NCBI RefSeq assembly: GCF_002951615.1
Contig: NZ_CP019062.1
Location: forward strand, 1,488,001 to 1,552,000
Length of the DNA stretch: 64,000 bases
Direction of reading: 5' to 3'
Origin: Rahnella sikkimica
GTDB taxonomy: Bacteria; Pseudomonadota; Gammaproteobacteria; Enterobacterales; Enterobacteriaceae
Shown: in pieces, positions 13,381 through 24,592 of the stretch
Numbering within the stretch: position 1 is the stretch's first letter
Layout: every line of letters starts with the position of its first letter
Notes under the pieces: generated by a model
Told to the model about the DNA's origin: nothing
Databases searched by the model: none
Seen by the model: only the letters and a program-made list of their open reading frames with translations
Position numbers and translations under genes: made by a program

Positions 13381-13900
13381 GCGCCGAAACCGACCAGAGA
13401 GGGCCAGGACGGGCCCTCTCTGGACTCTCCGCGTCTTTTTACAACACGCGCTGTCGCTGGCTGGCTATGTTTCAGGTGCCACAGCTATTGCCGCGAAACC
13501 TTGCCGCTGCGCGGTTCCCTTACTCGGTTTCGAGCCACAGGTCTCGAAACACTTCGCTCGGCAAGCTTTCTGAAAGCGGCCGGAGGCTTTTTCAATTCAA
13601 CAATCAGCCTGCATCTATCTTCCGAATTACATAGCTATTGGCCGCTTTCAAAACGACGTTGAGTGAGGAGTGAGAAACAGCGAGAGTCTTTTTTCGAGCG
13701 GGTTCGAACCCGAGGCGAAAGGACCGCGCAGCGGCGGCGTTTGCGGCACTAGCCTGAGTGGCTGAAACATGGCCAGCAAGCGACAGCGCGCAGTTAAAAA
13801 AGCGCAGAGTCCAGAGACCCGCGCGTTACCGGGTCTTTGGTCGGTGTGGGCCGACGCCCACGACCTTGAATTTGAATTTGAATTTGAATTTGAATTTGAA
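13381..13900 (+). repeat. Long palindromic intergenic element R2 (~520 bp)
   Basis: Best-preserved copy. Left arm and the reverse complement of the right arm align over ~230 bp; for example GACTCTCCGCGTCTTTTT pairs with GACTCTGCGCTTTTTT, and both arms carry CGCGCTGTCGCT, ATGTTTCAG, CGCTGCGCGGT and GAAAGCGGCC. It ends with five exact TTTGAA hexamers (13871-13900) 12 bp from the LysR stop codon. It lies between convergent genes. Confidence 0.8.
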
Positions 13901-13912
13901 GGCAGTCCCGAA

Positions 13913-14818
13913 TCAAGGATTCAAAAAGCCCCCTTTTTCCTCCCCCAACTCCCATAGTTTCCTCCGAATCAGCTGTTTAAGCTTTAACGCCGCCTGCGAA
14001 GCAGGCTGATCCCTCCGGCTCAGCAGGATCACCTCAAACGGCAGTGCCTCCACGACAGGCACTATCTTAAGCTGATCGACATACCGCCTCGCGGTAAACG
14101 TATCGACAACGCCGACACCCCCGCCCGCCAGCACCATGTCGGCAATCACCGAATAGGTTTTGATGAACAAGGTCGAAGCCGGCATCAGACTGTTTTCACG
14201 CAAAACACGGTTGAGCACCTGCCCGAGCGGATCCTGTTGCTGGAGCATCAGCAAATCGTTGTCACACAGCCACGCCAGCGACACCGGGCCTTCGACCGGG
14301 GAATCCTTCGGTAATAACGCCACCATGTTAGCCTGATAAATCGACTCGGCGACCAGTTCCTGCGTGGCCTGCTCGCCGAAGGCCAGCGCGAAATCCATTT
14401 TGTATTGCAGCAGATCCTGACTCAGCGTGTTGAAATGCCCGGTCACCAGTTCGACGCTGCCGCCGGGCGTCTGGCGGCGAAAATCCACCAGCACCGGAGC
14501 CATGACGCTGTGCCCCAGCGCGTGCGCCGAGCCGATGCGCACATGCTGGCCTTCGCCCTGACGCAGTTGTTCCGCCAGTTCACCAATCGCCTGAATATGG
14601 CTGAACAGCGCCTCGACTTCCGGCATCAGACGGCGGCCTTCGGGCGTGACGATCAAGCCCTGCGGCGTGCGGTCAAACAGCGTAAAACCCAGCTGCTGTT
14701 CCGCGTGGTTCAATACGCGGCTGACGTTGGGCTGCGAAACGTTGAGCAATCGCGCCGCGCCGCTGACGCTGCCCGCCTGTAAAACCGCCTGAAAGACTTC
14801 AATGTGGCGTAAGCGCAT
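13913..14818 (-). CDS. LysR-family regulator, last gene of the D-peptide operon
   Basis: 301 aa. N-terminal winged HTH (MRLRHIEVFQAVLQAGSVSGAARLLNVSQPNVSRVL) plus a LysR substrate-binding domain (~90-295). Its ATG abuts the stop codon of the D-aminopeptidase gene with no gap, so it is translated from the same operon transcript and likely senses a D-amino acid or peptide. A candidate T-N11-A site lies before dgcN at 24460. It resembles the OccR/NocR-type LysR group in style, but that is not certain. Confidence 0.85.
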   Translation of the reverse strand: MRLRHIEVFQAVLQAGSVSGAARLLNVSQPNVSRVLNHAEQQLGFTLFDRTPQGLIVTPEGRRLMPEVEALFSHIQAIGELAEQLRQGEGQHVRIGSAHALGHSVMAPVLVDFRRQTPGGSVELVTGHFNTLSQDLLQYKMDFALAFGEQATQELVAESIYQANMVALLPKDSPVEGPVSLAWLCDNDLLMLQQQDPLGQVLNRVLRENSLMPASTLFIKTYSVIADMVLAGGGVGVVDTFTARRYVDQLKIVPVVEALPFEVILLSRRDQPASQAALKLKQLIRRKLWELGEEKGGFLNP

Positions 14819-15640
14819 TTATTTCTGCGTCGTCGCAAGGTAAGAAAATGCGCTTAACAGGCTGATAATATTGGCGACGTTCGGGCTGTGATAGCCGACG
14901 GTGACGGCGTCGATGCGCTCAACGCCGGGGATCAGACTGAACAAGTCGGCCAGAACCGGTTTCGCCGCCATCAGTTCAAGGTGGTATGGCGCACTGAATC
15001 TTCCTGCGGTCAGCGGCGCGGGTTTGCTGACGGCAATCGTCGCCTGTTTGCGGATTTTGGCGCAGGCAATTGACGGGCTGTCGGATTCAGCGGCGTTAGC
15101 GGAAATCGCGCGTTTCACGCAGACGTACTGGGATTCCGGGTAATGGCGGCGGATCCAGGTTTCGAGATGATCGTCGCCGGTTACCAGCCACAGCGGAACG
15201 TTCAGTTCGGCACCGGCGGCGGCGTACAAATCGCTTTCGCCGACCACGTTGCCGTTGAGTTTGACGCGGTAAAAGGCGCGGCCATTAATGGTATGCGCCA
15301 GCACGCCGTTTTCTCCGGCGGCGGTGTGATAACCGACAAACATCAGGCCGTCGTATTGCTGCTGTTGCAGGCCTTCGACCATCGATAATCCGCGCGGTTT
15401 GCCCTGCACCAGACGGGCGCGCGGGTCGATTTTGTCCGCACGCAGGTTCTGCATCATCGCGTGGCTGTCGGCGACCGTCACTTCCATCGCGCCACCGGCA
15501 AATGCGCCGTCAATGGCGGCATTCACTTCGCCTTCCATCAGCGCCCGCGCGGCGTCGTAATCCGCATTGCCGGGGCTGCATTGCTCGGGGCGCATCACGC
15601 CCGCAATACCTTCGATGTCAGCAGAGATAAAGACTTTCAT
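14819..15640 (-). CDS. M55-family D-aminopeptidase (DppA type)
   Basis: Zinc aminopeptidase of the B. subtilis DppA family, which removes N-terminal D-residues such as D-Ala from peptides. 273 aa. Metal and active-site residues match the family: Asp8 and Glu10 (ISADIEG), His60 (VADSHAM), His105 (GYHTAAG), His116 and Glu135. No signal peptide, so cytoplasmic, acting on imported peptides. AAGGGA lies 9 bases before the ATG. The start overlaps the stop of the S58 peptidase by 4 bp. Confidence 0.88.
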   Translation of the reverse strand: MKVFISADIEGIAGVMRPEQCSPGNADYDAARALMEGEVNAAIDGAFAGGAMEVTVADSHAMMQNLRADKIDPRARLVQGKPRGLSMVEGLQQQQYDGLMFVGYHTAAGENGVLAHTINGRAFYRVKLNGNVVGESDLYAAAGAELNVPLWLVTGDDHLETWIRRHYPESQYVCVKRAISANAAESDSPSIACAKIRKQATIAVSKPAPLTAGRFSAPYHLELMAAKPVLADLFSLIPGVERIDAVTVGYHSPNVANIISLLSAFSYLATTQK

Positions 15641-16719
15641 AATGGTTTCCCTTTTAAATTTGCGAGGTTGTCCAGAATTTCAGTCAACCCCAGCCGGTAA
15701 TGCCCGTCGAATCCGCAGACGGTTTCTGCACTCAGTAAGGCATCAATAATAGCGTGTTCTGTGGCATCTGCCGCGAGCGCCAGCAGCGGTTCCAGTTTTG
15801 CCTCGGCCAACGTGACACTGTCACGCTTTGTGGAAAATGCCAGCGCGATATCACCGGAACCGTGGCCCCAGTAGCTGCCCAGACGCCCTAACCCTGCACC
15901 GGCGCGTTTAGCGATCCGCCCGAGCTGACGGCTGTCGAGATAACGGTCGCAGGCCATGATGATAATGATGGACCCGGCGTCCACCTGCGGAGCAAGCTGT
16001 GGCTGGATTTTCGCGATGGCGTCGCCGACGCGCACGCCGTCGAGCGTCAGTTCGGACAACTTGCCGAAATTCGCCAGCACCAGCACGCCGAGCGTTGCGC
16101 TAAGTTCTTCACACCAGCGCGACGCCGTGCCGATCCCGCCTTTCAGGCCGAAACTGCTCATGCCCCGCCCGGCTCCCACGCTGCCACGGGCAAACGCTTT
16201 TGTCGCGCCGTCGAGTGCGGTCAGCGCGTCGTCTTCACTGACCGCCATCGCCTGAATGTCGTTAAGATAGAAGTCATTACATTCGAGGATCACCGGATTA
16301 ATCGTCGCGTCCGGTCTGCCCATTTGCGGAAATTGTTGGCAACTGCGTTTCACCAGTGCGTTAAATAACGTGCCGGTCGCAAAAGTATTGCTGAGCAGAA
16401 CGGGCGTTTGCAGTTCGCCCAGTTCCATTATCTGGATCAGCCCCATCGGTTTGGCAAAACCATTCAGCACCGCCGCACCGCACGGCAACGGGGTTTCATA
16501 AAGGTTATCGCCCGGCGGCACAATCGCGGTGACGCCGGTCTGGATATCCCCCGCTGCCAGCGTGCTGTGGCCGACGGTCACGCCCGCGACGTCGGTGATG
16601 GAATTGGACGGCCCGCTTGGAAAACGCGGGTGAAAAATCTGACGCGTTTTGCGCCAGCGTTGCAGCAAGGCCGCCAGCGTCTGCTGCGTGAATTCGTCTT
16701 GATTATCTTGCGGGAGCAT
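15637..16719 (-). CDS. P1/S58-family aminopeptidase (DmpA/BapA type)
   Basis: Self-processing Ntn-type aminopeptidase, 360 aa. DmpA relatives release L- or D-N-terminal residues or beta-amino acids. Motifs: NSITDVAGVTVGHSTL near the start, GAGRGMSSFGLKGGIGTASR, and the cleavage/nucleophile segment GHGSGDIALAFST with Ser288 as expected nucleophile. No signal peptide. GGAAG precedes the ATG. It sits between the importer permease genes and the D-aminopeptidase, which suggests hydrolysis of the imported peptides. Confidence 0.85.
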   Translation of the reverse strand: MLPQDNQDEFTQQTLAALLQRWRKTRQIFHPRFPSGPSNSITDVAGVTVGHSTLAAGDIQTGVTAIVPPGDNLYETPLPCGAAVLNGFAKPMGLIQIMELGELQTPVLLSNTFATGTLFNALVKRSCQQFPQMGRPDATINPVILECNDFYLNDIQAMAVSEDDALTALDGATKAFARGSVGAGRGMSSFGLKGGIGTASRWCEELSATLGVLVLANFGKLSELTLDGVRVGDAIAKIQPQLAPQVDAGSIIIIMACDRYLDSRQLGRIAKRAGAGLGRLGSYWGHGSGDIALAFSTKRDSVTLAEAKLEPLLALAADATEHAIIDALLSAETVCGFDGHYRLGLTEILDNLANLKGKPL

Positions 16720-16755
16720 CAGTCTTCCGTTTCATGTCATGAGTTCAGAGCGTAA

Positions 16756-17667
16756 TTACTTTTTCAGTTTAGGATCGAGCGTGTCACGCAGCGCGTCGCC
16801 GAGCAAATTAAACGCCAGAACCGTGAGGAATATCGCCAGTCCGGGGAAAACACTGACGTTCCATTTGCCCGCCATCATCATGTTACGGCTCATCGCCAGA
16901 ATATTGCCCCACTCCGGCACGTCCGGTTCCGGGCCAAGACCGATAAAACTCAGGCTGGCGGCGGTCAGAATGCTGGTACCGATGCGCATGGTGAAATAGA
17001 CAATCACGTTCGAGAGCGTGCCCGGCAGGATGTGACGCAAAATCACCACGCGGTCAGGCGCACCGACGCAGCGCACCGCTTCCACGTAGGCACTTTGTTT
17101 GATGGATAACGTCGCCGCGCGGACGATGCGGGCGAAAACCGGCACGCTGAACACTGCCACGGCGATAATCACGTTATTCAGGCCGGGACCGAGGATGGCG
17201 ACGACGGCAATCGCCAGCAACATACCGGGAAACGCAAACAGAACGTCGGATCCGCGCATGATCAGCATGTCCGCCCAGCGACCATAATAGCCCGCCAGTA
17301 ATCCGAGCAAAACACCGGCAATCATGCCCAGCGTGACCGAGAAAATGCCGACGTAGAGCGAAATCCGCGCGCCATAAATAATACGACTGAGCACGTCGCG
17401 GCCCAGATCATCGGTACCAAACCAGTGTTCCGGCGTCGGGCCAACGCCCAGCGCCATCCAGTCGGGTGTCATCGGATCATAAGGCGCGAGCCACGGCGCA
17501 AAAATGGCCACCAGGATCAGCAGCAGAATAAATCCGCCGGACACCAGCGCCATCGGATGGCGCATAAACGTCTGGAAAAAGTCGTACCACGGCGAGCGGA
17601 TATCATCACTGTGCGGGGCAACCGCTGCCGGTTGAGTTTCCACCGGTGGAGAAACAGGATCGGTCAT
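16756..17667 (-). CDS. Peptide ABC transporter permease, DppC/GsiD type
   Basis: Inner-membrane permease, 303 aa, with an OppC-type N-terminal segment and the EAA-type loop ([21 protein letters not shown]). [21 protein letters not shown] is characteristic of DppC/GsiD. It pairs with the DppB-type permease 9 bp upstream. Part of the operon importing the peptides handled by the two adjoining peptidases. Confidence 0.88.
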
Positions 17668-17676
17668 ATACAGCTC

Positions 17677-18597
17677 CTAGCGCAGACGAATCGCCGGATT
17701 GACCACGGCGTAAAGCACGTCAACCAGCAAATTAATCAGAATAAATTCAAACACAAACAGCATAACCAGCGCCTGAATGACCGGCTGATCCTGCGTTTTG
17801 ATGGATTCGATGAGTAACCAGCCCAGTCCCGGCCAGCTGAAGACGCTTTCGACGATAATCGAACCGCCCAGCAGGAAACCAAACTGCAAGCCCAGCATGG
17901 TGATAATCGGGATCAGCGCGTTGCGCATGATGTGTTTCCAGGTCACCAGCCGCGCCCGTAAGCCTTTGGCGTTAGCGGTGCGCACGTAATCTTCCTGCGC
18001 CACGTCGAGAAACGCCGAACGGGTGAAACGCGCCATCACCGCCGCCACCGAAGAACCGAGCGTAATCGCCGGCAGAATGATGTCGGTCGGCTGGTTAAAT
18101 CCGCTGACGGCAAATATCCCAAACGGCATCGCAACAAACTGAATCAAGAGCAACCCGAGCCAGAACGGCGGCATGGAAATCCCGCCGACCGCCATGCTCA
18201 TTAATGTCCAGTCCTGCCATTTTCCGCGTTTAAGCGCTGAGACCACGCCAATCACCAGCCCCAGGACCACTGACCAGGCGAAACCGGCCAGCGCCAGCAG
18301 CAACGTGGGCATAAATCCGCTTTCTATTACGCTTAACACCGGCTGACGCGTGCGGTACGTCGTGCCCAGATCGCCATGCACCATGCCGTTTAGCCAGTGC
18401 CCGTACTGCGCCGGAAGCGGATCATTCAGACCAAGCAGTTGCCGCGCTGACTCAACCGCCTCAATCGTCGCATCCTGACCGGCGTAAATACGCGCCGGGT
18501 CACCCGGCAGCAGCTTGATAAATCCAAATACCAGTAAGGACACCACCAGTAAAACCGGGATCATCTCCAGTAACCGGCGGATTAAATAGGTCAGCAT
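17677..18597 (-). CDS. Peptide ABC transporter permease, DppB/GsiC type
   Basis: Inner-membrane permease, 306 aa, six predicted membrane spans. Starts MLTYLIRRLLEMIPVLLVVSLLVF; EAA loop region RTANAKGLRARLVTWKHIMRNALIP. First permease of the pair. It is separated from the binding-protein gene upstream by a ~300-bp spacer filled with hairpin repeats, which may tune relative expression. Confidence 0.88.
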   Translation of the reverse strand: MLTYLIRRLLEMIPVLLVVSLLVFGFIKLLPGDPARIYAGQDATIEAVESARQLLGLNDPLPAQYGHWLNGMVHGDLGTTYRTRQPVLSVIESGFMPTLLLALAGFAWSVVLGLVIGVVSALKRGKWQDWTLMSMAVGGISMPPFWLGLLLIQFVAMPFGIFAVSGFNQPTDIILPAITLGSSVAAVMARFTRSAFLDVAQEDYVRTANAKGLRARLVTWKHIMRNALIPIITMLGLQFGFLLGGSIIVESVFSWPGLGWLLIESIKTQDQPVIQALVMLFVFEFILINLLVDVLYAVVNPAIRLR

Positions 18598-18679
18598 AAA
18601 TGTGTTTCCCTGAGCCTGTATATTGATGACGGTTTACTCATCCCCGGCGCAGAAGAGAGAGCTGACCGAAGGTCTGGCC

Positions 18680-18871
18680 TTTGCTCCCCCCCTGCGCAGG
18701 GGAGGGAGTAAACCACAACATAATTTGTTCTGGCCTTTGCTCCTCCCCCTGCGAAGGGGGAGGTTGGGAGGGGGTTTAGCAGACATGTACCTTGCCAAAG
18801 CACACTTCAACCAGAGTTTTTAACCTTAATACCCCACCCCAACCCTCCCCTTCGCAGGGGAGGGAGTAAAC
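18680..18871. repeat. G/C-rich hairpin repeats inside the operon (three units)
   Basis: Three hairpin units at ~18680-18714, 18735-18778 and 18831-18871 (for example CTCCCCCTGCGAAGGGGGAG), related to the elements at 4552 and 57794. They occupy the spacer between the binding-protein and permease genes. The arrangement resembles REP sequences in malE-malF-type operons that stabilise the upstream message. Confidence 0.7.
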
Positions 18872-18894
18872 CGCATACACGTTCTGGCAATCAA

Positions 18895-20439
18895 TTACTT
18901 AAACTGTGCCTGATTGAAAATCAGAGAACCGTCGGCCAGCATGTAGACGCCGGACAAGGCTTTGCTCTTACCGACCAGATTGTCCGGGACGCCCAGATAG
19001 GCCATCGGCGCATCGGCCCACAGCACTTTCTGCGCATCGGCATACGCCGCTTTACGTTTTTCAACGTCGGCGGTTTGCAGCCCGGCGGTGATCGCCGCAT
19101 CAACCTGTTTATTGCTGTAATACGATACGTTGTAGGCCGACGGGATCCAGGATTCGGTGGCGAACAGCGGGCGCAACGCCCAGTCAGCGTCACCCGTTGA
19201 AGCCGACCATGCGCCGTAATACATTTCGACTTTCGCATCCGCCGGTTTCGCCGTGCTCCACAGGCGCTGCGTCAGGGTTCCGGCGTCCATCGGTACCAGT
19301 TTCACGCGCACGCCAATCAGTGAGAGTTGCTGTTTCAGGAACTGCGCGCTGCGGATACGGTCGGTTTTGTTGGAACTCCACATTTCCACGTCGAAGCCCT
19401 TCTCATACCCGGCTTCTTTCATCAGCTCTTTCGCTTTGGCGATGTTGTAGCTGTAATCCGGCGCGGTTTGCTTCTGGTAGAACTGGACGTTTTTCGGCAG
19501 CGGCGACGTGGACGGCGAACCTAAACCGCCGAAACCGACTTTCAGCCAGAGATTACGGTCAATGGCGTAGTTGATTGCCTGACGGACGCGCACGTCAGAG
19601 AACTCTTTTTTCTGCGTGTTGAACGCGATGTAATACAGATAAATGCTCGGGTTCTGAGCGATATCGAGTTTCGGATCGCTTTTCACGGTTTCCACCAGAT
19701 CAGACGGCAGCGGATACACCGCATCCACGCCGCCGGATTTCAGTTTTGCCACCTGCGTGGAATCTTCCGGCGTTGGATACAGCGTCACGGAATCGACTTT
19801 CGGCCAGCCTTTCTGCCAGTAGTTGTCGTATTTCACCAGTTTGACGTCCTTGCCCTGCTGCCATTCGACGAATTTAAACGGACCGGTGCCGACAGGATGC
19901 ACACTCAGATCCTGTTCATTCGGATACTGTTTCAGCGACGCCGGGCTGTGCATGACCGCAGACGGGTGCGCCAGCGTGTTGATCATCGCGCCAAACGGTT
20001 TGTTCAGCGTGATTTTGACCTGATACGGGCTGACCACGTCTACCGATTTAATCATGCTGAACAGTGAGTTACGTTTCAGATGATTGGCCGGATCCGCCAG
20101 ACGGCCGAGGTTTGCTTTTACCGCATCGGCGTTAAACGGCGTGCCGTCCTGGAAGGTCACGTCGTGGCGCAGGTTGATAGTAAATTCAGTGGCGTCGCTG
20201 TTGCTGGTGTAATCAGTTGCCAGCACCGGCACGACGGCCATTTTGCTGTCGAACTGGAACAGGCGTTCAAAAATCCCGCTCTGGATGGAATAACTCAGGG
20301 TGTCCGTGGTGTCGTGCGGATCAAAACCGGTCACGTCGGCATACATGGAAATGCGCAGATCTTTCGCCTGTGCAGAAGCGGCAAAACAGAGCGCCAGCCC
20401 TGCTGCCAGCAGGCTTTTACGTAGAAACGTCGAGTGCAT
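18895..20439 (-). CDS. Periplasmic peptide-binding protein (SBP family 5, GsiB-like)
   Basis: 514 aa with a clear signal peptide ending ASAQA (residue 25). Family-5 features: DVTGFDPHDTTDTLSYSIQSGIFERLF, FQDGTPFNADAVKANLGRLADPANHLKR, VRQAINYAIDRNLWLKVGFGG. Resembles GsiB (glutathione) most among those I know, but operon context points to peptides containing D-residues. It binds substrate in the periplasm for the permeases downstream. Confidence 0.87.
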   Translation of the reverse strand: MHSTFLRKSLLAAGLALCFAASAQAKDLRISMYADVTGFDPHDTTDTLSYSIQSGIFERLFQFDSKMAVVPVLATDYTSNSDATEFTINLRHDVTFQDGTPFNADAVKANLGRLADPANHLKRNSLFSMIKSVDVVSPYQVKITLNKPFGAMINTLAHPSAVMHSPASLKQYPNEQDLSVHPVGTGPFKFVEWQQGKDVKLVKYDNYWQKGWPKVDSVTLYPTPEDSTQVAKLKSGGVDAVYPLPSDLVETVKSDPKLDIAQNPSIYLYYIAFNTQKKEFSDVRVRQAINYAIDRNLWLKVGFGGLGSPSTSPLPKNVQFYQKQTAPDYSYNIAKAKELMKEAGYEKGFDVEMWSSNKTDRIRSAQFLKQQLSLIGVRVKLVPMDAGTLTQRLWSTAKPADAKVEMYYGAWSASTGDADWALRPLFATESWIPSAYNVSYYSNKQVDAAITAGLQTADVEKRKAAYADAQKVLWADAPMAYLGVPDNLVGKSKALSGVYMLADGSLIFNQAQFK

Positions 20440-20475
20440 GAACTTCTCCTGTGTGTTCCAAAAAAGAAATATGAT

Positions 20476-22347
20476 TTATCCCTGCGCGACCCAGTGGTGC
20501 TCGCTGACGCGGGAATATTTGAGTTTTTCTATCTGTACACCTGCCGGATGCACCGGCGACTTCACTTCCACATCATCAAAATTACGCAACGCACGCTGCG
20601 TTGGATCCGCCACCGGCACTGAACTGAGCAGGCGACGGGTGTAAGTGTGTTGAGGATTGCTAAACACGGCGTCGCGCGGACCAATTTCCACAATCTGCCC
20701 GCTGTACATCACCGCGACGCGGTTGGCGATGCGTTCCACCACCGCCATATCGTGCGAGATAAACAGCCACGCCACGCCGGTGTCGCGCTGTAAATCCATC
20801 ATCAGATTCACCACCTGCGCCTGAATAGAAACATCCAGCGCCGACACCGCTTCGTCGGCAATAATCACCTGCGGCTGCAACGCCATCGCGCGCGCAATCG
20901 CGATTCGCTGACGCTGGCCGCCGGAGAATTCATGGGGATAACGCCGCGCAAAAGAGGGATCCAGCCCGACGCTTTTCAGCAACTGGTTCACCACCGGCGT
21001 GGCATCCGCCAGTGATTTTTTCAGGCCGTGCAGTAATAAAGGTTCGGCGATTGAAAAACCGACGGTCAGACGCGGGTTCAGCGAGGCATACGGATCCTGA
21101 AACACCATCTGGATCTGACGTCGCACCGCCTGAAACGGCGTGTCGCGCATCAGCGTAATTTCTTTGCCTTCCAGATGAATGCTTTCGGATTCACTGCCGA
21201 CCAGACGTAAAATCGCGCGCCCGGTGGTGGATTTCCCGCAGCCACTTTCCCCGACCAGCGCCAGCGTTTCGCCCGGCCAGATTGAAAAATCAATTTGCTC
21301 AACGGCGTGAACTTCTTTGGTCACGCGTGACAAAACACCGGAGCGGATCGGGTAACAGACGCGTAATCCGCGCACGTCAAGCAGCGGCGGCGCGTCGTAA
21401 TTCGCGGTTTTCTGATCGCCGTCTGCCGCAGAAATGTGAGGCTCATCACCTGCAACCGATTGCTTATTTGCACCATTTATAGCCGCACTGAGCAGCGGAA
21501 AACGGCGTGGCCATTTCAGCCCTTGCATGTCGCCCAGTTTCGGTACGGCGGCCAGCAATGCGCGGGTATAAGGGTGCTGCGCGTGGGCAAAAATGTCGGT
21601 CACGCTGCCCTGTTCCACCACGTTGCCCTGATACATCACCACCACGCGGTCGGCAATTTCAGCGACAACGCCCATATCGTGGGTAATAAAGAGCACGGAC
21701 ATGTCTGTGCCTTTTTGGAGGTCCCGCAGAATTTGCAGAATGCGCGCCTGCACGGTGACATCCAGCGCGGTAGTCGGCTCATCGGCAATCAGCAATGCCG
21801 GATCACAGGCCAGCGCCTGCGCAATCATGACGCGCTGACGCATACCGCCGGAAAGTTCGTGGGGATAACATTTGAGAATGCGTTCAACGTCGGGGATACG
21901 CACCTGTTTGAGCAGATCACGGGCAATATTGAGCGCGGTGGCTTTGTTCGCCATGCCGTGGTCAATCAGCCCTTCCGTGAGCTGATCGCCAACCCGCAAC
22001 ACCGGGTTCAGCGACGTCATCGGTTCCTGGAAGATCATCGACATTTCGCGGCCACGCAATTTGCGTCGCGCGTCTGCCGGAAGCGAATTAAGCGCGTGCC
22101 GCGTGCCATCGCGCCCGAAAAAATTGATGCTGCCACCGTCGATATGGGCGGAATCCGGCAGCAGGCCCATCACGCTCAGGGACGTGACGGATTTACCGGA
22201 GCCGCTTTCGCCGACCACCGCCACCACTTCACCTTTATTAATAGAAAAGGAAACGCCCTTCAGCGCCTGAGTTTTGCCCTGACGGCCGGAAAACGTGACC
22301 GACAAATCGTTAATCTGCAAGATTGGCGATGGCTGTTCATTTATCAA
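20476..22347 (-). CDS. Peptide ABC transporter fused dual ATPase (GsiA-like)
   Basis: 623 aa, the same length as E. coli GsiA. Two complete ATPase halves: first Walker A GESGSGKS (46-53), signature LSGGMRQR, Walker B LLIADEPT; second Walker A GESGCGKST (~370), signature FSGGQRQR, Walker B VIIADE. It energises the importer encoded by the three following genes. Separated from dgcA upstream by 33 bp. Confidence 0.9.
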   Translation of the reverse strand: MINEQPSPILQINDLSVTFSGRQGKTQALKGVSFSINKGEVVAVVGESGSGKSVTSLSVMGLLPDSAHIDGGSINFFGRDGTRHALNSLPADARRKLRGREMSMIFQEPMTSLNPVLRVGDQLTEGLIDHGMANKATALNIARDLLKQVRIPDVERILKCYPHELSGGMRQRVMIAQALACDPALLIADEPTTALDVTVQARILQILRDLQKGTDMSVLFITHDMGVVAEIADRVVVMYQGNVVEQGSVTDIFAHAQHPYTRALLAAVPKLGDMQGLKWPRRFPLLSAAINGANKQSVAGDEPHISAADGDQKTANYDAPPLLDVRGLRVCYPIRSGVLSRVTKEVHAVEQIDFSIWPGETLALVGESGCGKSTTGRAILRLVGSESESIHLEGKEITLMRDTPFQAVRRQIQMVFQDPYASLNPRLTVGFSIAEPLLLHGLKKSLADATPVVNQLLKSVGLDPSFARRYPHEFSGGQRQRIAIARAMALQPQVIIADEAVSALDVSIQAQVVNLMMDLQRDTGVAWLFISHDMAVVERIANRVAVMYSGQIVEIGPRDAVFSNPQHTYTRRLLSSVPVADPTQRALRNFDDVEVKSPVHPAGVQIEKLKYSRVSEHHWVAQG

Positions 22348-22380
22348 AAAAACGTCCCCTTTAGAGATAACAGTTAAAAA

Positions 22381-23346
22381 TCAGAGCCAGACTTCGCCGT
22401 TCTGGTAGCGCAACGCCGGTTCAGCGTCCTGCGCCAGCCAGATCGGGCCATCAAGATCGACACGTTCGGCCTGAACCGCCACCGGCAGCGCGGCTTCCAT
22501 GGCAATGGAAGAACCGAGCATACAACCGACCATGATCCGCAGCCCCAGACGGCGGGCTTCTTCGGTCATCGCCAGCGCTTCGGTCAGCCCGCCGCACTTA
22601 TCGAGCTTGATGTTGATCATCTCGTAACGGTCGCGCAGACCGGCGATATCCGAACGTTCGTGACAGCTTTCGTCGGCGCAGACAGGAATGGGATGCAAAC
22701 ACCGCACCAGATCGTGGTCATTACCTGCCGGAAGCGGTTGTTCAATCATCGCCACGTTAAATTCATGCAGCGCCTGGAACAGGCTGCCGAGATCGAGGCC
22801 CTGCCAGGCTTCGTTGGCATCCACGACCAGCGTCGCCAGCGGTGCCGCTGCGCGGATAGCCGCAACCTTCTCGATAATCTGCTCGCGGTCGAGTTTGATT
22901 TTCAGCAACTGCGCGCCACCGGCCACGGCAATGCCGGCTGCTTTCGCCATGTTTTCCACGGAATCCAGGCTCAGGGTTTCTGCGGTAATCACCGAAACAG
23001 GTTTCGGCATATCAAGCAGTTGCCACAAGGTTTTGCCCTGTTTTGCCGCATCCAGACGCCACAGTGCACAGTCGAGGGCATTGCGCGCCGAACCGATCGG
23101 CATCACGTCCTGCAACGCTTCACGGGTCAGCCCCTCTTCGACCCGCGTTCGGATCACATCCAGCTGCTCGCAAACGCTTTGCGGCGATTCCTGATAATGC
23201 GCGGTGGGCGTGCATTCGCCGGTGGCGGTAAATTCACCGTCGGTTAGGGTCACTCGCACCACGGTGACGGCGGTGCGCGTTCCGCGTGAAATCGCAAAGG
23301 GCTTCGCCAGCGGCAGTTCGGCTGACAGGAAAGTCATCTGAATCAT
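22381..23346 (-). CDS. dgcA: N-acetyl-D-glutamate racemase / dipeptide-epimerase family (DgcA)
   Basis: Enolase-superfamily enzyme of the muconate-lactonising subgroup, 321 aa. Catalytic KxK (Lys149, Lys151), metal ligands Asp176 (VVDANEAW), Glu202 (IEQPLP) and Asp225 (CADESC), and Lys247 (INIKLDKCGG). Alone it would read as an L-Ala-D/L-Glu epimerase (YcjG/YkfB). Its translational coupling to a DgcN-type gene (1-bp overlap) favours the DgcA role, converting N-acetyl-D-Glu to N-acetyl-L-Glu. Epimerase action on imported dipeptides remains the alternative. Confidence 0.8.
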   Translation of the reverse strand: MIQMTFLSAELPLAKPFAISRGTRTAVTVVRVTLTDGEFTATGECTPTAHYQESPQSVCEQLDVIRTRVEEGLTREALQDVMPIGSARNALDCALWRLDAAKQGKTLWQLLDMPKPVSVITAETLSLDSVENMAKAAGIAVAGGAQLLKIKLDREQIIEKVAAIRAAAPLATLVVDANEAWQGLDLGSLFQALHEFNVAMIEQPLPAGNDHDLVRCLHPIPVCADESCHERSDIAGLRDRYEMINIKLDKCGGLTEALAMTEEARRLGLRIMVGCMLGSSIAMEAALPVAVQAERVDLDGPIWLAQDAEPALRYQNGEVWL

Positions 23347-24356
23347 CAGCCGTTATCCCTGATCCATTGCGCGATATTTTTGATGCCGAAACGCACCGGA
23401 TCGGTCGCCGGAACGCCGAATTCTTCACTGATTTCCGCCAGCGCGATTTTGGCTTCTTCTTCACTCACGGCAGAGGTGTTCAGCGAGAAACCAGCGAGTT
23501 TAACGTCCGGGCTGGTGAGACTGGCCGCCGCCAGATTGGTATCCAGGCATTGGCGCAGCGTCGGCATAAACTGATGCGGCAGATGGCGCATATGCGGGCG
23601 GCCAAGTTCATGACACATCACCAGCAAATGCGCCTGCGCGCCGTGGATCAGGCCCATGCTGACGCCTGCAAATGACGGATGATAAAGCGAACCCTGCCCT
23701 TCGATAATGTCCCAGTGGTCATCGTCGTTAGCCGGTGACAGCGCCTCAACTGCGCCGGAAATAAAGTCAGCAATCACAGCATCAATCGCGATACCGGCAC
23801 CGGCCACCAGCACGCCGGTCTGGCCGGTGGCGCGGAAATCAGCTTTCAAATCCAGTTCGCGCATGGCAGATTCCAGCGCCAGCGAGGTGTACATTTTGCC
23901 GACGGAACAGTCGGTGCCGACGGTCAGAATGCGTTTGCCGCTGCGCTTCTTGCCAGTGCCGGTATCCAGCTCCGGCTGCATATGGCGCACATCGAACAGC
24001 TGCACGTTATGTTCAGCGGCCAGCGCCACCAGCTCAGGAATATCGTTCAGCCCCTGATGTAAACCGTTCGCCACGTTCAGCCCGGCGCGGATCGCCGTTT
24101 TGATCGAATCAAGCCAGTGACGGGGTAATTTGCCGCCCGAATTCGCCGTGCCCAGCACCATGGTTTTTGCGCCCTGCGCAATCGCGGTGTCGATATCCAG
24201 ATCCGGTAATCCCAGAGACACCGAATCCGTCGCCAGACGAATTTGCCCGACGCAGGCTTCAGGACGCCAGACGTGTATCCCGCGCGCGGTTTTGGCCGCC
24301 AGCGGATCCATCACATCGCCCAGGAATAACAGGTACGGCTTGGGTATTTGCTGCAT
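23346..24356 (-). CDS. dgcN: D-glutamate N-acetyltransferase DgcN (DUF1611 family)
   Basis: 336 aa, DUF1611-type. N-terminal Rossmann-like half (YLLFLGDVMDPLAAKTARGI) and a C-terminal P-loop-like half with GTDCSVGKMYTS (147-158). DgcN proteins acetylate D-Glu in the DgcN-DgcA catabolic route described in marine bacteria; that assignment is family knowledge. GGAG lies 8 bases before the ATG. First gene of the operon, overlapping dgcA by one base. Confidence 0.82.
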   Translation of the reverse strand: MQQIPKPYLLFLGDVMDPLAAKTARGIHVWRPEACVGQIRLATDSVSLGLPDLDIDTAIAQGAKTMVLGTANSGGKLPRHWLDSIKTAIRAGLNVANGLHQGLNDIPELVALAAEHNVQLFDVRHMQPELDTGTGKKRSGKRILTVGTDCSVGKMYTSLALESAMRELDLKADFRATGQTGVLVAGAGIAIDAVIADFISGAVEALSPANDDDHWDIIEGQGSLYHPSFAGVSMGLIHGAQAHLLVMCHELGRPHMRHLPHQFMPTLRQCLDTNLAAASLTSPDVKLAGFSLNTSAVSEEEAKIALAEISEEFGVPATDPVRFGIKNIAQWIRDNG

Positions 24357-24560: not shown

Positions 24561-24592
24561 AAAAAAAGGCAGAGCCAATGAACTCTGCCTTT
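24561..24592 (-). terminator. Terminator of the porin gene
   Basis: Perfect 7-bp stem GGCAGAG/CTCTGCC; read on the minus strand it is followed by a T7 run. It lies ~50 bp after the porin stop. Confidence 0.85.

Follow-up and report, generated by a model that had tools for sequence, protein, structure and literature searches.

A conserved, mobile operon of Rahnella sikkimica that combines the DgcN-DgcA route for D-glutamate with a peptide importer and two peptidases

A stretch of 64,000 nucleotides of the Rahnella sikkimica genome (RefSeq assembly GCF_002951615.1, contig NZ_CP019062.1, positions 1,488,001 to 1,552,000; the window from here on) carries a nine-gene operon on its minus strand, at positions 13913-24356. 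This operon is real, conserved and mobile, and joins the known DgcN-DgcA route for D-glutamate to an ATP-binding cassette (ABC) peptide importer and two peptidases. We give a probability of about 0.57 to the reading that it would serve the regulated catabolism of short peptides containing D-glutamate, a different acidic D-residue or the amide of one. The D-glutamate part of this reading draws on inference from sequence and the peptide part on the gene families present.

Gene order, conservation and mobility

The nine open reading frames were confirmed at the positions listed here together with the features that border or interrupt them (scores in bits; cut-offs are those of the NCBIfam equivalog models).

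23346-24356, minus: dgcN, D-glutamate N-acetyltransferase family (DUF1611); DgcN model 524, cut-off 480; 54% identity to DgcN of Pseudoalteromonas sp. CF6-2
22381-23346, minus: dgcA, enolase-superfamily racemase/epimerase of a distinct operon-type clade (support 100/100; Thr48 for Tyr); DgcA model 431, cut-off 400; YcjG model 383, cut-off 343
20476-22347, minus: fused two-domain ABC ATPase with a TTG start, GsiA paralogue; GsiA model 815, below cut-off 1077
18895-20439, minus: periplasmic peptide-binding protein (SBP_bac_5), GsiB paralogue; GsiB model 481, below cut-off 594; nearest solved chain 1uqw (YliB)
18598-18894, no strand: 297-bp spacer with G/C-rich inverted-repeat elements, seen in the sequence
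17677-18597, minus: GsiC-like permease (Pfam BPD_transp_1); GsiC model 391, below cut-off 463
16756-17667, minus: GsiD-like permease (Pfam BPD_transp_1); GsiD model 413, below cut-off 484
15637-16719, minus: S58 (P1) aminopeptidase; Pfam S58 333; best solved match archaeal 2drh
14819-15640, minus: metallopeptidase of the M55 D-aminopeptidase family; Pfam M55 308; DppA equivalog 151, below cut-off 430
13913-14818, minus: LysR-type regulator; 144 bits to DgcR of CF6-2
24565-24592, minus: terminator-like hairpin after a porin gene, a pattern match only

The original prediction, made from the sequence alone, is borne out in its gene order, strand, coordinates and families, and in the 1-bp overlap of dgcN and dgcA, the 4-bp overlap of the S58 and M55 genes and the zero gap between M55 and lysR. 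The tight packing that it had described throughout stands at these junctions but not between the binding-protein gene and the first permease gene, where the 297-bp spacer lies; parts of the inverted repeats of this spacer recur elsewhere in the window. In the 44 full operons described below, the corresponding spacing, measured between hits, was 20-337 bp (median 86).

We have compared the best 80 of 516 loci by M55 similarity, a set whose counts are not population frequencies and in which several loci are short or end at contig ends (e.g., L116, L131, L132, L164, L179); gene order was counted over genes on the M55 strand. The eight structural genes were found in the same order (dgcN, dgcA, ATPase, binding protein, permease, permease, S58, M55) in 44 of the 80, with a matching LysR gene in the flank of 41 of these 44, and the order was identical across all 80 loci. 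The closest named M55 relatives were in ten Rahnella loci (95-98% identity). Apart from the loci without dgcN only, which are taken up below, the remaining classes were one locus without dgcA only (L138), one without the transporter (L123, a metagenome-assembled genome, MAG), two with importer, S58 and M55 in the absence of dgcN and dgcA, eight with S58-M55 only, four with M55 only and four other partial forms. The transporter-less Enterobacterales MAG (L123:2993-9232) has dgcN-dgcA-S58-M55-lysR preceded, like the window operon, by a gene for an OmpF-like porin. In Serratia bockelmannii (L133:7129-15019) a lone S58-M55 pair stands beside TauE-family, molybdopterin and cytochrome c oxidoreductase genes.

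Of 247 genomes from the order, 46 had a DgcN match (35 over the cut-off), 11 an M55 match (nine over the cut-off) and 19 an S58 match. The nine genomes with M55 over the cut-off had S58 adjacent in eight cases and DgcN within 10 kb in six, and wherever DgcN and a full-length M55 occurred in the same genome they lay within 10 kb (6/6), against a chance expectation of about 0.4% per genome (20 kb in 5 Mb). Two genomes, Pectobacterium-like in sequence (G126 and G198), had all the operon genes but dgcN, and a DgcN match was absent genome-wide from both, these being the two dgcN-less genomes checked whole; G060 had M55 alone. Conserved co-occurrence in related genomes, set as a check by the original prediction, is thus found both in the 44 complete loci and in the 6/6 linkage. 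As a general rule outside Enterobacterales, the linkage of dgcN and M55 was rejected. In the class survey (274 genomes, the window's own included) M55 was found in four and DgcN in 16, and both in the window's genome only; in the phylum survey (299 genomes) both exceeded the cut-off in three genomes, linked in two (the window's and G097) and on different contigs in the third (G731). We have also mapped 12 other dgcN loci, of which 11 had dgcN-dgcA (one with a split dgcA) but no comparable importer or peptidase genes, and the twelfth dgcN alone. Celerinatantimonas (G186/L181) has this operon plus a separate stand-alone dgcN-dgcA pair.

The unit is also found on plasmids. The 9,164-bp version carried by plasmid pKPN_CZ of Klebsiella pneumoniae, whose nine proteins are 64-85% identical to those of the window, was present at full length and at least 99.7% identity in 23 plasmid records including the query (20 from Klebsiella and three from Enterobacter; one of the copies is in two pieces, with an insertion sequence IS5 transposase annotated under it); identity was about 88% for the copies on 12 plasmids of Pantoea ananatis. 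It was found at 99.9% or more in 5 of 5,426 Escherichia coli genomes, always in the chromosome, and these five copies are probably two related groups, judged by their coordinates. The one chromosomal copy examined, that of E. coli AH04 (L211), has transposase genes of IS1, IS5 and IS110 around it, as well as mrk type 3 fimbria genes. Since the whole set has been transferred together, its genes would be expected to work as one unit. A "glutathione ABC-transport system" mentioned for pKPN-307 plasmids, in the part of the source available (PMC5506382), was considered as the same element and rejected: record KY271404 is not among the 50 matching plasmid records and carries DdpA and GsiC annotations.

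An OmpF-like porin gene lies upstream of dgcN, and the terminator-like hairpin that follows it (24592-24565, minus) fits dgcN as the first gene of the operon and is its likely upstream limit, in a region where 24 such sites were found against 14.5 expected. Promoter patterns in the region were uninformative (three sites against 5.2 expected). Just past the lysR stop, at 13850-13915, there is a run of short TTCAAA-like repeats.

DgcN, DgcA and the regulator

PMC12363236 describes a pathway that irreversibly racemises acidic D-amino acids and the amides of these, with dgcN as its key gene. The window protein is above the DgcN equivalog cut-off. Alignment of 26 stand-alone DgcNs gave 103 columns conserved at the 95% level; 90 of these were as well conserved in 46 operon DgcNs, 13 being different. 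The P-loop stretch at 150-157 was identical in all 46 save for a Ser151 to Ala change in one. The ratio of nonsynonymous to synonymous substitution rates (dN/dS; Nei-Gojobori method in our own implementation, no sequence pair dropped) was 0.038-0.047 for dgcN, indicating strong purifying selection.

The NCBIfam name of DgcA was rejected as proof of activity, since the DgcA model also accepts the YcjG encoded elsewhere in the same genome. That separate YcjG scores 571 bits on the YcjG model, against 382-383 for the operon DgcA, and its gene adjoins one for an OppA-like binding protein (653 bits, below the cut-off of 947). By these scores the operon DgcA is not the housekeeping YcjG, and because a separate YcjG is present in the genome the ordinary L-Ala-D-Glu route should be independent of the operon. 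The window DgcA is nearer in identity to neither type, with 48% to its own YcjG and, for 28 stand-alone DgcA rows, 41-54% (median 48%); these rows represent 26 distinct genes, locus L009 having given none. We have built a tree of 45 DgcA and YcjG rows, midpoint-rooted and with long-branch warnings (28 of the 63 operon DgcAs of the locus set plus that of the window, ten stand-alone and six others). The operon DgcAs form a single clade (support 100/100), outside the YcjG clade, and do not group with the stand-alone DgcAs, with the exception of one of the ten (L070), to which a long-branch warning applies. Two rows labelled YcjG (L099 and L100) fall with the stand-alone DgcAs.

Four residues, Arg21, N178, E179 and H229, were invariant in the 45 operon DgcAs that have dgcN beside them (45/45), in the 28 stand-alone rows and in four YcjGs; in L099, a stand-alone DgcA outside the 28-row set, H229 is Tyr. 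Arg21, in the 20s loop, we take to be the one that, in the Bacillus L-Ala-D/L-Glu epimerase, binds the side chain of glutamate. Among the operon DgcAs without dgcN (18 rows, two of them gapped here), a single one of the 16 readable rows keeps Arg21, and most have changes at N178, E179 and H229, while D176, E202, D225, K247, D297 and D299 were kept in 63/63 rows, the dgcN-less ones included. The dgcN-loss clade has a support of 99/95 in the tree, and the sole keeper of Arg21 in it is Brenneria sp. 4F2 (L137); if its placement within Brenneria (90/75) holds, Arg21 would have been lost at least twice. The dgcA dN/dS was 0.059 in 11 dgcN-less Pectobacterium loci, 0.108 in three dgcN-less Brenneria loci and 0.068-0.109 in the groups with dgcN. 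Decay as the cause of the change in DgcA was hence rejected for Pectobacterium and is less clear as a rejection for Brenneria. Some Symbiopectobacterium loci (L170, L185) have split genes. DgcA is thus kept under selection, but its glutamate-type site only alongside dgcN. This pattern is the strongest sign in the sequences that DgcN and DgcA may share a glutamate-type substrate chain. Since YcjG has the same Arg, it points to a glutamate-type substrate and not to N-acetyl-D-glutamate over L-Ala-D-Glu. The DxD motif (D297 and D299, presumably ammonium-binding in dipeptide epimerases) was tried as a marker of dipeptide epimerases and rejected, as stand-alone DgcAs have it too. In one of the Pectobacterium-like genomes (G126, L205:8073-10079), which has no DgcN match, a stand-alone DgcA-type gene (495 bits on the DgcA model) adjoins a class IV aminotransferase gene.

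A wider scenario can be put forward tentatively, with the odds somewhat against it. After the loss of dgcN in Pectobacterium and Brenneria, the same epimerase would have shed its glutamate-recognition residues, and selection would have maintained it for some other epimerisation, with an imported peptide as substrate; the operon would be a mobile, self-sufficient nutrition module that feeds DgcN-DgcA from peptides rather than from free D-glutamate, with a new Thr48 subfamily of DgcA evolved alongside the Gsi-type importer.

The LysR regulator, besides its 144 bits to DgcR, gave 146-163 bits with seven LysRs located beside stand-alone dgcN genes and 62.5 or less with nine other LysRs of the compared loci. 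The best match of both the window LysR and DgcR is PRK11013, at scores under its cut-off, so that a relationship of the operon LysR to DgcR is suggestive only.

Importer, peptidases and the history of the unit

For all four transporter parts the best-scoring NCBIfam models were those of Gsi, and every one of the four equivalog cut-offs was missed (see the list above). A second importer set elsewhere in the genome passes them all (GsiA 1085 against 1077, GsiB 996 against 594, GsiC 614 against 463 and GsiD 595 against 484), and is adjoined by an IaaA-like gene (IaaA score 463, below the cut-off of 567). With the Gsi cut-offs missed here and passed by a separate gsiABCD, the operon importer is therefore, by model scores, a Gsi paralogue distinct from the genome's own gsiABCD, and its cargo is not readable from the name. 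The NCBI annotation of the plasmid copies calls the binding protein a "glutathione ABC transporter substrate-binding protein".

Aminopeptidases of the S58 and M55 families act on unusual or D-residues. In the S58 alignment Gly249-Ser250 and Asn217 were kept in 73 of 74 rows (one gapped) and Glu146 in 74/74. These Gly-Ser (cleavage site and nucleophile), Asn and Glu positions, as well as the Tyr146 position of DmpA, are presumably catalytic, by comparison with DmpA. In M55, D8, E10, H60, H105, H116 and E135, which we take to be the catalytic residues, were kept in all 72 rows scoring above 280 bits. The intact catalytic residues claimed from the sequence thus hold for M55; in S58 the Gly-Ser, Asn and Glu positions are kept, but at the DmpA Tyr146 position the window protein has Asn148, as in archaeal 2drh. 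The S58 of Pantoea ananatis LMG 2665 (L058:7282-8271, L172:9012-10001) scored 341-342 bits, against at least 457 in the other Pantoea copies scored; as read in L058 it misses an internal stretch, and a different P. ananatis plasmid annotates a P1 peptidase of 1,044 bp.

Outside the order, nine M55 genes of the phylum survey exceeded the cut-off. Beside five of them (L193-L197) we found a Gsi-type importer and S58, and dgcN and dgcA were not found in the 17-20 kb stretches of these five loci; S58 was not found in the stretch around the other four. M55 is on the other strand in L197, the ATPase was not separately called in L196, nor was the second permease in L194 and L196. In 24 of the 80 loci, the start of a gene like the isoaspartyl-peptidase homologue of Dickeya lies no more than 0.5 kb from the M55 end, in lineages that include Pectobacterium, Brenneria, Dickeya, Celerinatantimonas, Limobrevibacterium and a Rhodospirillales MAG. 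Pfam PF01112 was confirmed for the neighbouring genes of L152, L143, L181 and L139 (the IaaA equivalog cut-off not being reached in L152 and L143), and L193 has a PF01112 gene immediately before its GsiA-like ATPase gene. In the Rahnella, Ewingella, Rouxiella and Pantoea loci, an isoaspartyl-type gene was not found next to M55. The simplest history is that the older unit would be a Gsi-type importer-S58-M55 block related to iaaA-gsiABCD, to which the dgcN-dgcA pair was added in Enterobacterales (in the GTDB sense). Co-regulation of the core block is hinted at in Ralstonia solanacearum, because in the available part of a study of root colonisation a regulator, an isoaspartyl peptidase, GsiC and a D-aminopeptidase (RSc1377, 1378, 1381 and 1384) were lowered together (PMC5357869). 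Downstream of the operon, other genes recur: an opposite-strand binding-protein gene like that of the second peptide importer of L143 (22/80 loci), a gene for an M19 dipeptidase-like protein (23/80) and, near the M55 end, an FAA-hydrolase-like gene (13/80). Examples are L143:11891-19756, which also encodes a beta-lactamase-fold protein, and L157:10886-19903.

Proposed pathway, alternatives and known systems

In the proposed pathway, the substrates, order of steps and inducer of which we infer, the Gsi-type importer, specialised away from glutathione, would take in short peptides, from which the S58 and M55 aminopeptidases would free the amino acids. DgcN would acetylate free D-glutamate and DgcA would racemise N-acetyl-D-glutamate to N-acetyl-L-glutamate, the LysR protein controlling the operon. 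N-acetyl-L-glutamate can go onward to L-glutamate or to arginine synthesis, and here it would be either deacetylated or fed into that synthesis. Peptidoglycan, the type of source put forward in the original prediction, is no more than one option; gamma-polyglutamate, natural products with D-residues and aged proteins are also possible. The original prediction had spoken of a single pathway. In favour are the conserved unit, the occurrence of almost identical complete copies on different replicons, the association of dgcN with the Arg of DgcA and an importer distinct from Gsi; but the unit is composite, since importer-S58-M55 occurs without dgcN-dgcA in other Pseudomonadota and dgcN-dgcA alone in 11 of the 12 other loci.

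Several findings weigh against a peptide-fed D-glutamate operon. A deacetylase was not found among the operon genes of the window by Pfam and NCBIfam family assignments; the importer-S58-M55 block exists without dgcN-dgcA in other lineages of Pseudomonadota; and 16 of the 80 loci are without dgcN only (one of them, L185, with split genes). The correlation of Arg21 with dgcN comes from one dgcN-loss clade, Arg21 is also invariant in YcjG, and the kinship of LysR with DgcR may reflect only a common PRK11013-like subfamily. The DgcA model accepts the genome's own YcjG as well (417 against its cut-off of 400). In the tree, the operon DgcA clade is on YcjG's side together with the long-branch stand-alone DgcA (L070), apart from the other nine (100/99 branch). 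Trp303 of the operon DgcA is common with YcjG, and Tyr48, conserved in every aligned stand-alone DgcA and YcjG, is Thr in 45/45 operon DgcAs with dgcN. The operon DgcA could then be an L-Ala-D/L-Glu-type dipeptide epimerase acting directly on imported dipeptides, like YcjG, with DgcN doing something else. That it passes the YcjG model, that its nearest solved chain is YcjG 1jpd, that D297 and D299 are always kept and that 18 of the 80 loci retain it although they have no dgcN would all agree with this. We nevertheless hold it to be quite unlikely, given the better YcjG elsewhere in the genome, the separate clade of the operon DgcAs, the lack of discrimination of the DxD motif and the loss of Arg21 along with dgcN.

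Rather unlikely, in our judgment, is also an operon mainly for abnormal N-termini of aged or damaged protein (isoaspartyl, D-aspartyl or beta-linked), in which IaaA-, S58- and M55-type enzymes would remove what ordinary aminopeptidases cannot and dgcN-dgcA would have been added for the released acidic D-residue. The isoaspartyl-type genes beside M55 and before the ATPase of L193, the M19 dipeptidase genes near several loci and the genes lowered together in R. solanacearum fit such a role, but the Rahnella, Ewingella, Rouxiella and Pantoea loci are without the isoaspartyl-type gene beside M55, and DgcN is assigned to the D-glutamate family. The annotation suggests a second importer operon for glutathione or gamma-glutamyl peptides, with dgcN-dgcA as passengers, and the Gsi models are indeed the best for all four transporter parts; with their cut-offs missed here and passed by the genome's second set, and with dgcN under strong purifying selection, this is very improbable.

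If the reading as a catabolic operon for D-glutamate peptides is true, peptide import and D-residue peptidases would be linked to the D-glutamate pathway described for free D-glutamate, this pathway would extend to Enterobacterales, plasmid-borne copies included, and the plasmid loci with a binding protein annotated as glutathione-binding may be misnamed. The dgcN-loss lineage is a natural experiment on what happens to a racemase or epimerase once its partner enzyme has gone. That no description of the full combination was known holds in that we found no paper discussing it in the open-access literature searched, most subscription papers being outside it; yet the gene set is not new as annotation, since in NCBI records consecutive plasmid genes already bear the names dgcN, dgcA, a glutathione-type binding protein, P1 peptidase and M55.

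Four known systems are comparable. The DgcR-DgcN-DgcA system of Pseudoalteromonas sp. CF6-2, reportedly described in ISME J in 2023 as a pathway for free D-glutamate, has adjacent co-directional dgcN-dgcA genes and a LysR gene in the unit, like the window operon, and its DgcN is 54% identical. However, its DgcA is only 40% identical, the operon DgcAs forming their separate clade with Thr48 for Tyr, and the 13 kb of the CF6-2 locus are without a Gsi-type importer, S58 or M55 and have instead an M14 carboxypeptidase and an NhaC-family antiporter upstream. With the glutathione import operon iaaA-gsiABCD, the window operon has in common the fused ATPase, binding protein and two permeases in order and, in some relatives, an isoaspartyl-peptidase-type gene beside the block; it differs in falling below the Gsi cut-offs, in having dgcN-dgcA, S58 and M55 and no iaaA, and in coexisting with a separate Gsi set. 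DppA, the M55 D-aminopeptidase of Bacillus, is encoded in the dpp peptide operon. The window M55 likewise goes with a peptide ABC importer and has the same aligned D, E and H residues, but misses the DppA equivalog cut-off by far. Lastly, YcjG of peptidoglycan recycling is of the same superfamily and on the same side of the tree as the operon DgcA, which passes the YcjG model; unlike it, the operon DgcA belongs to a separate clade with Tyr48 replaced, in a genome that has its own, higher-scoring YcjG.

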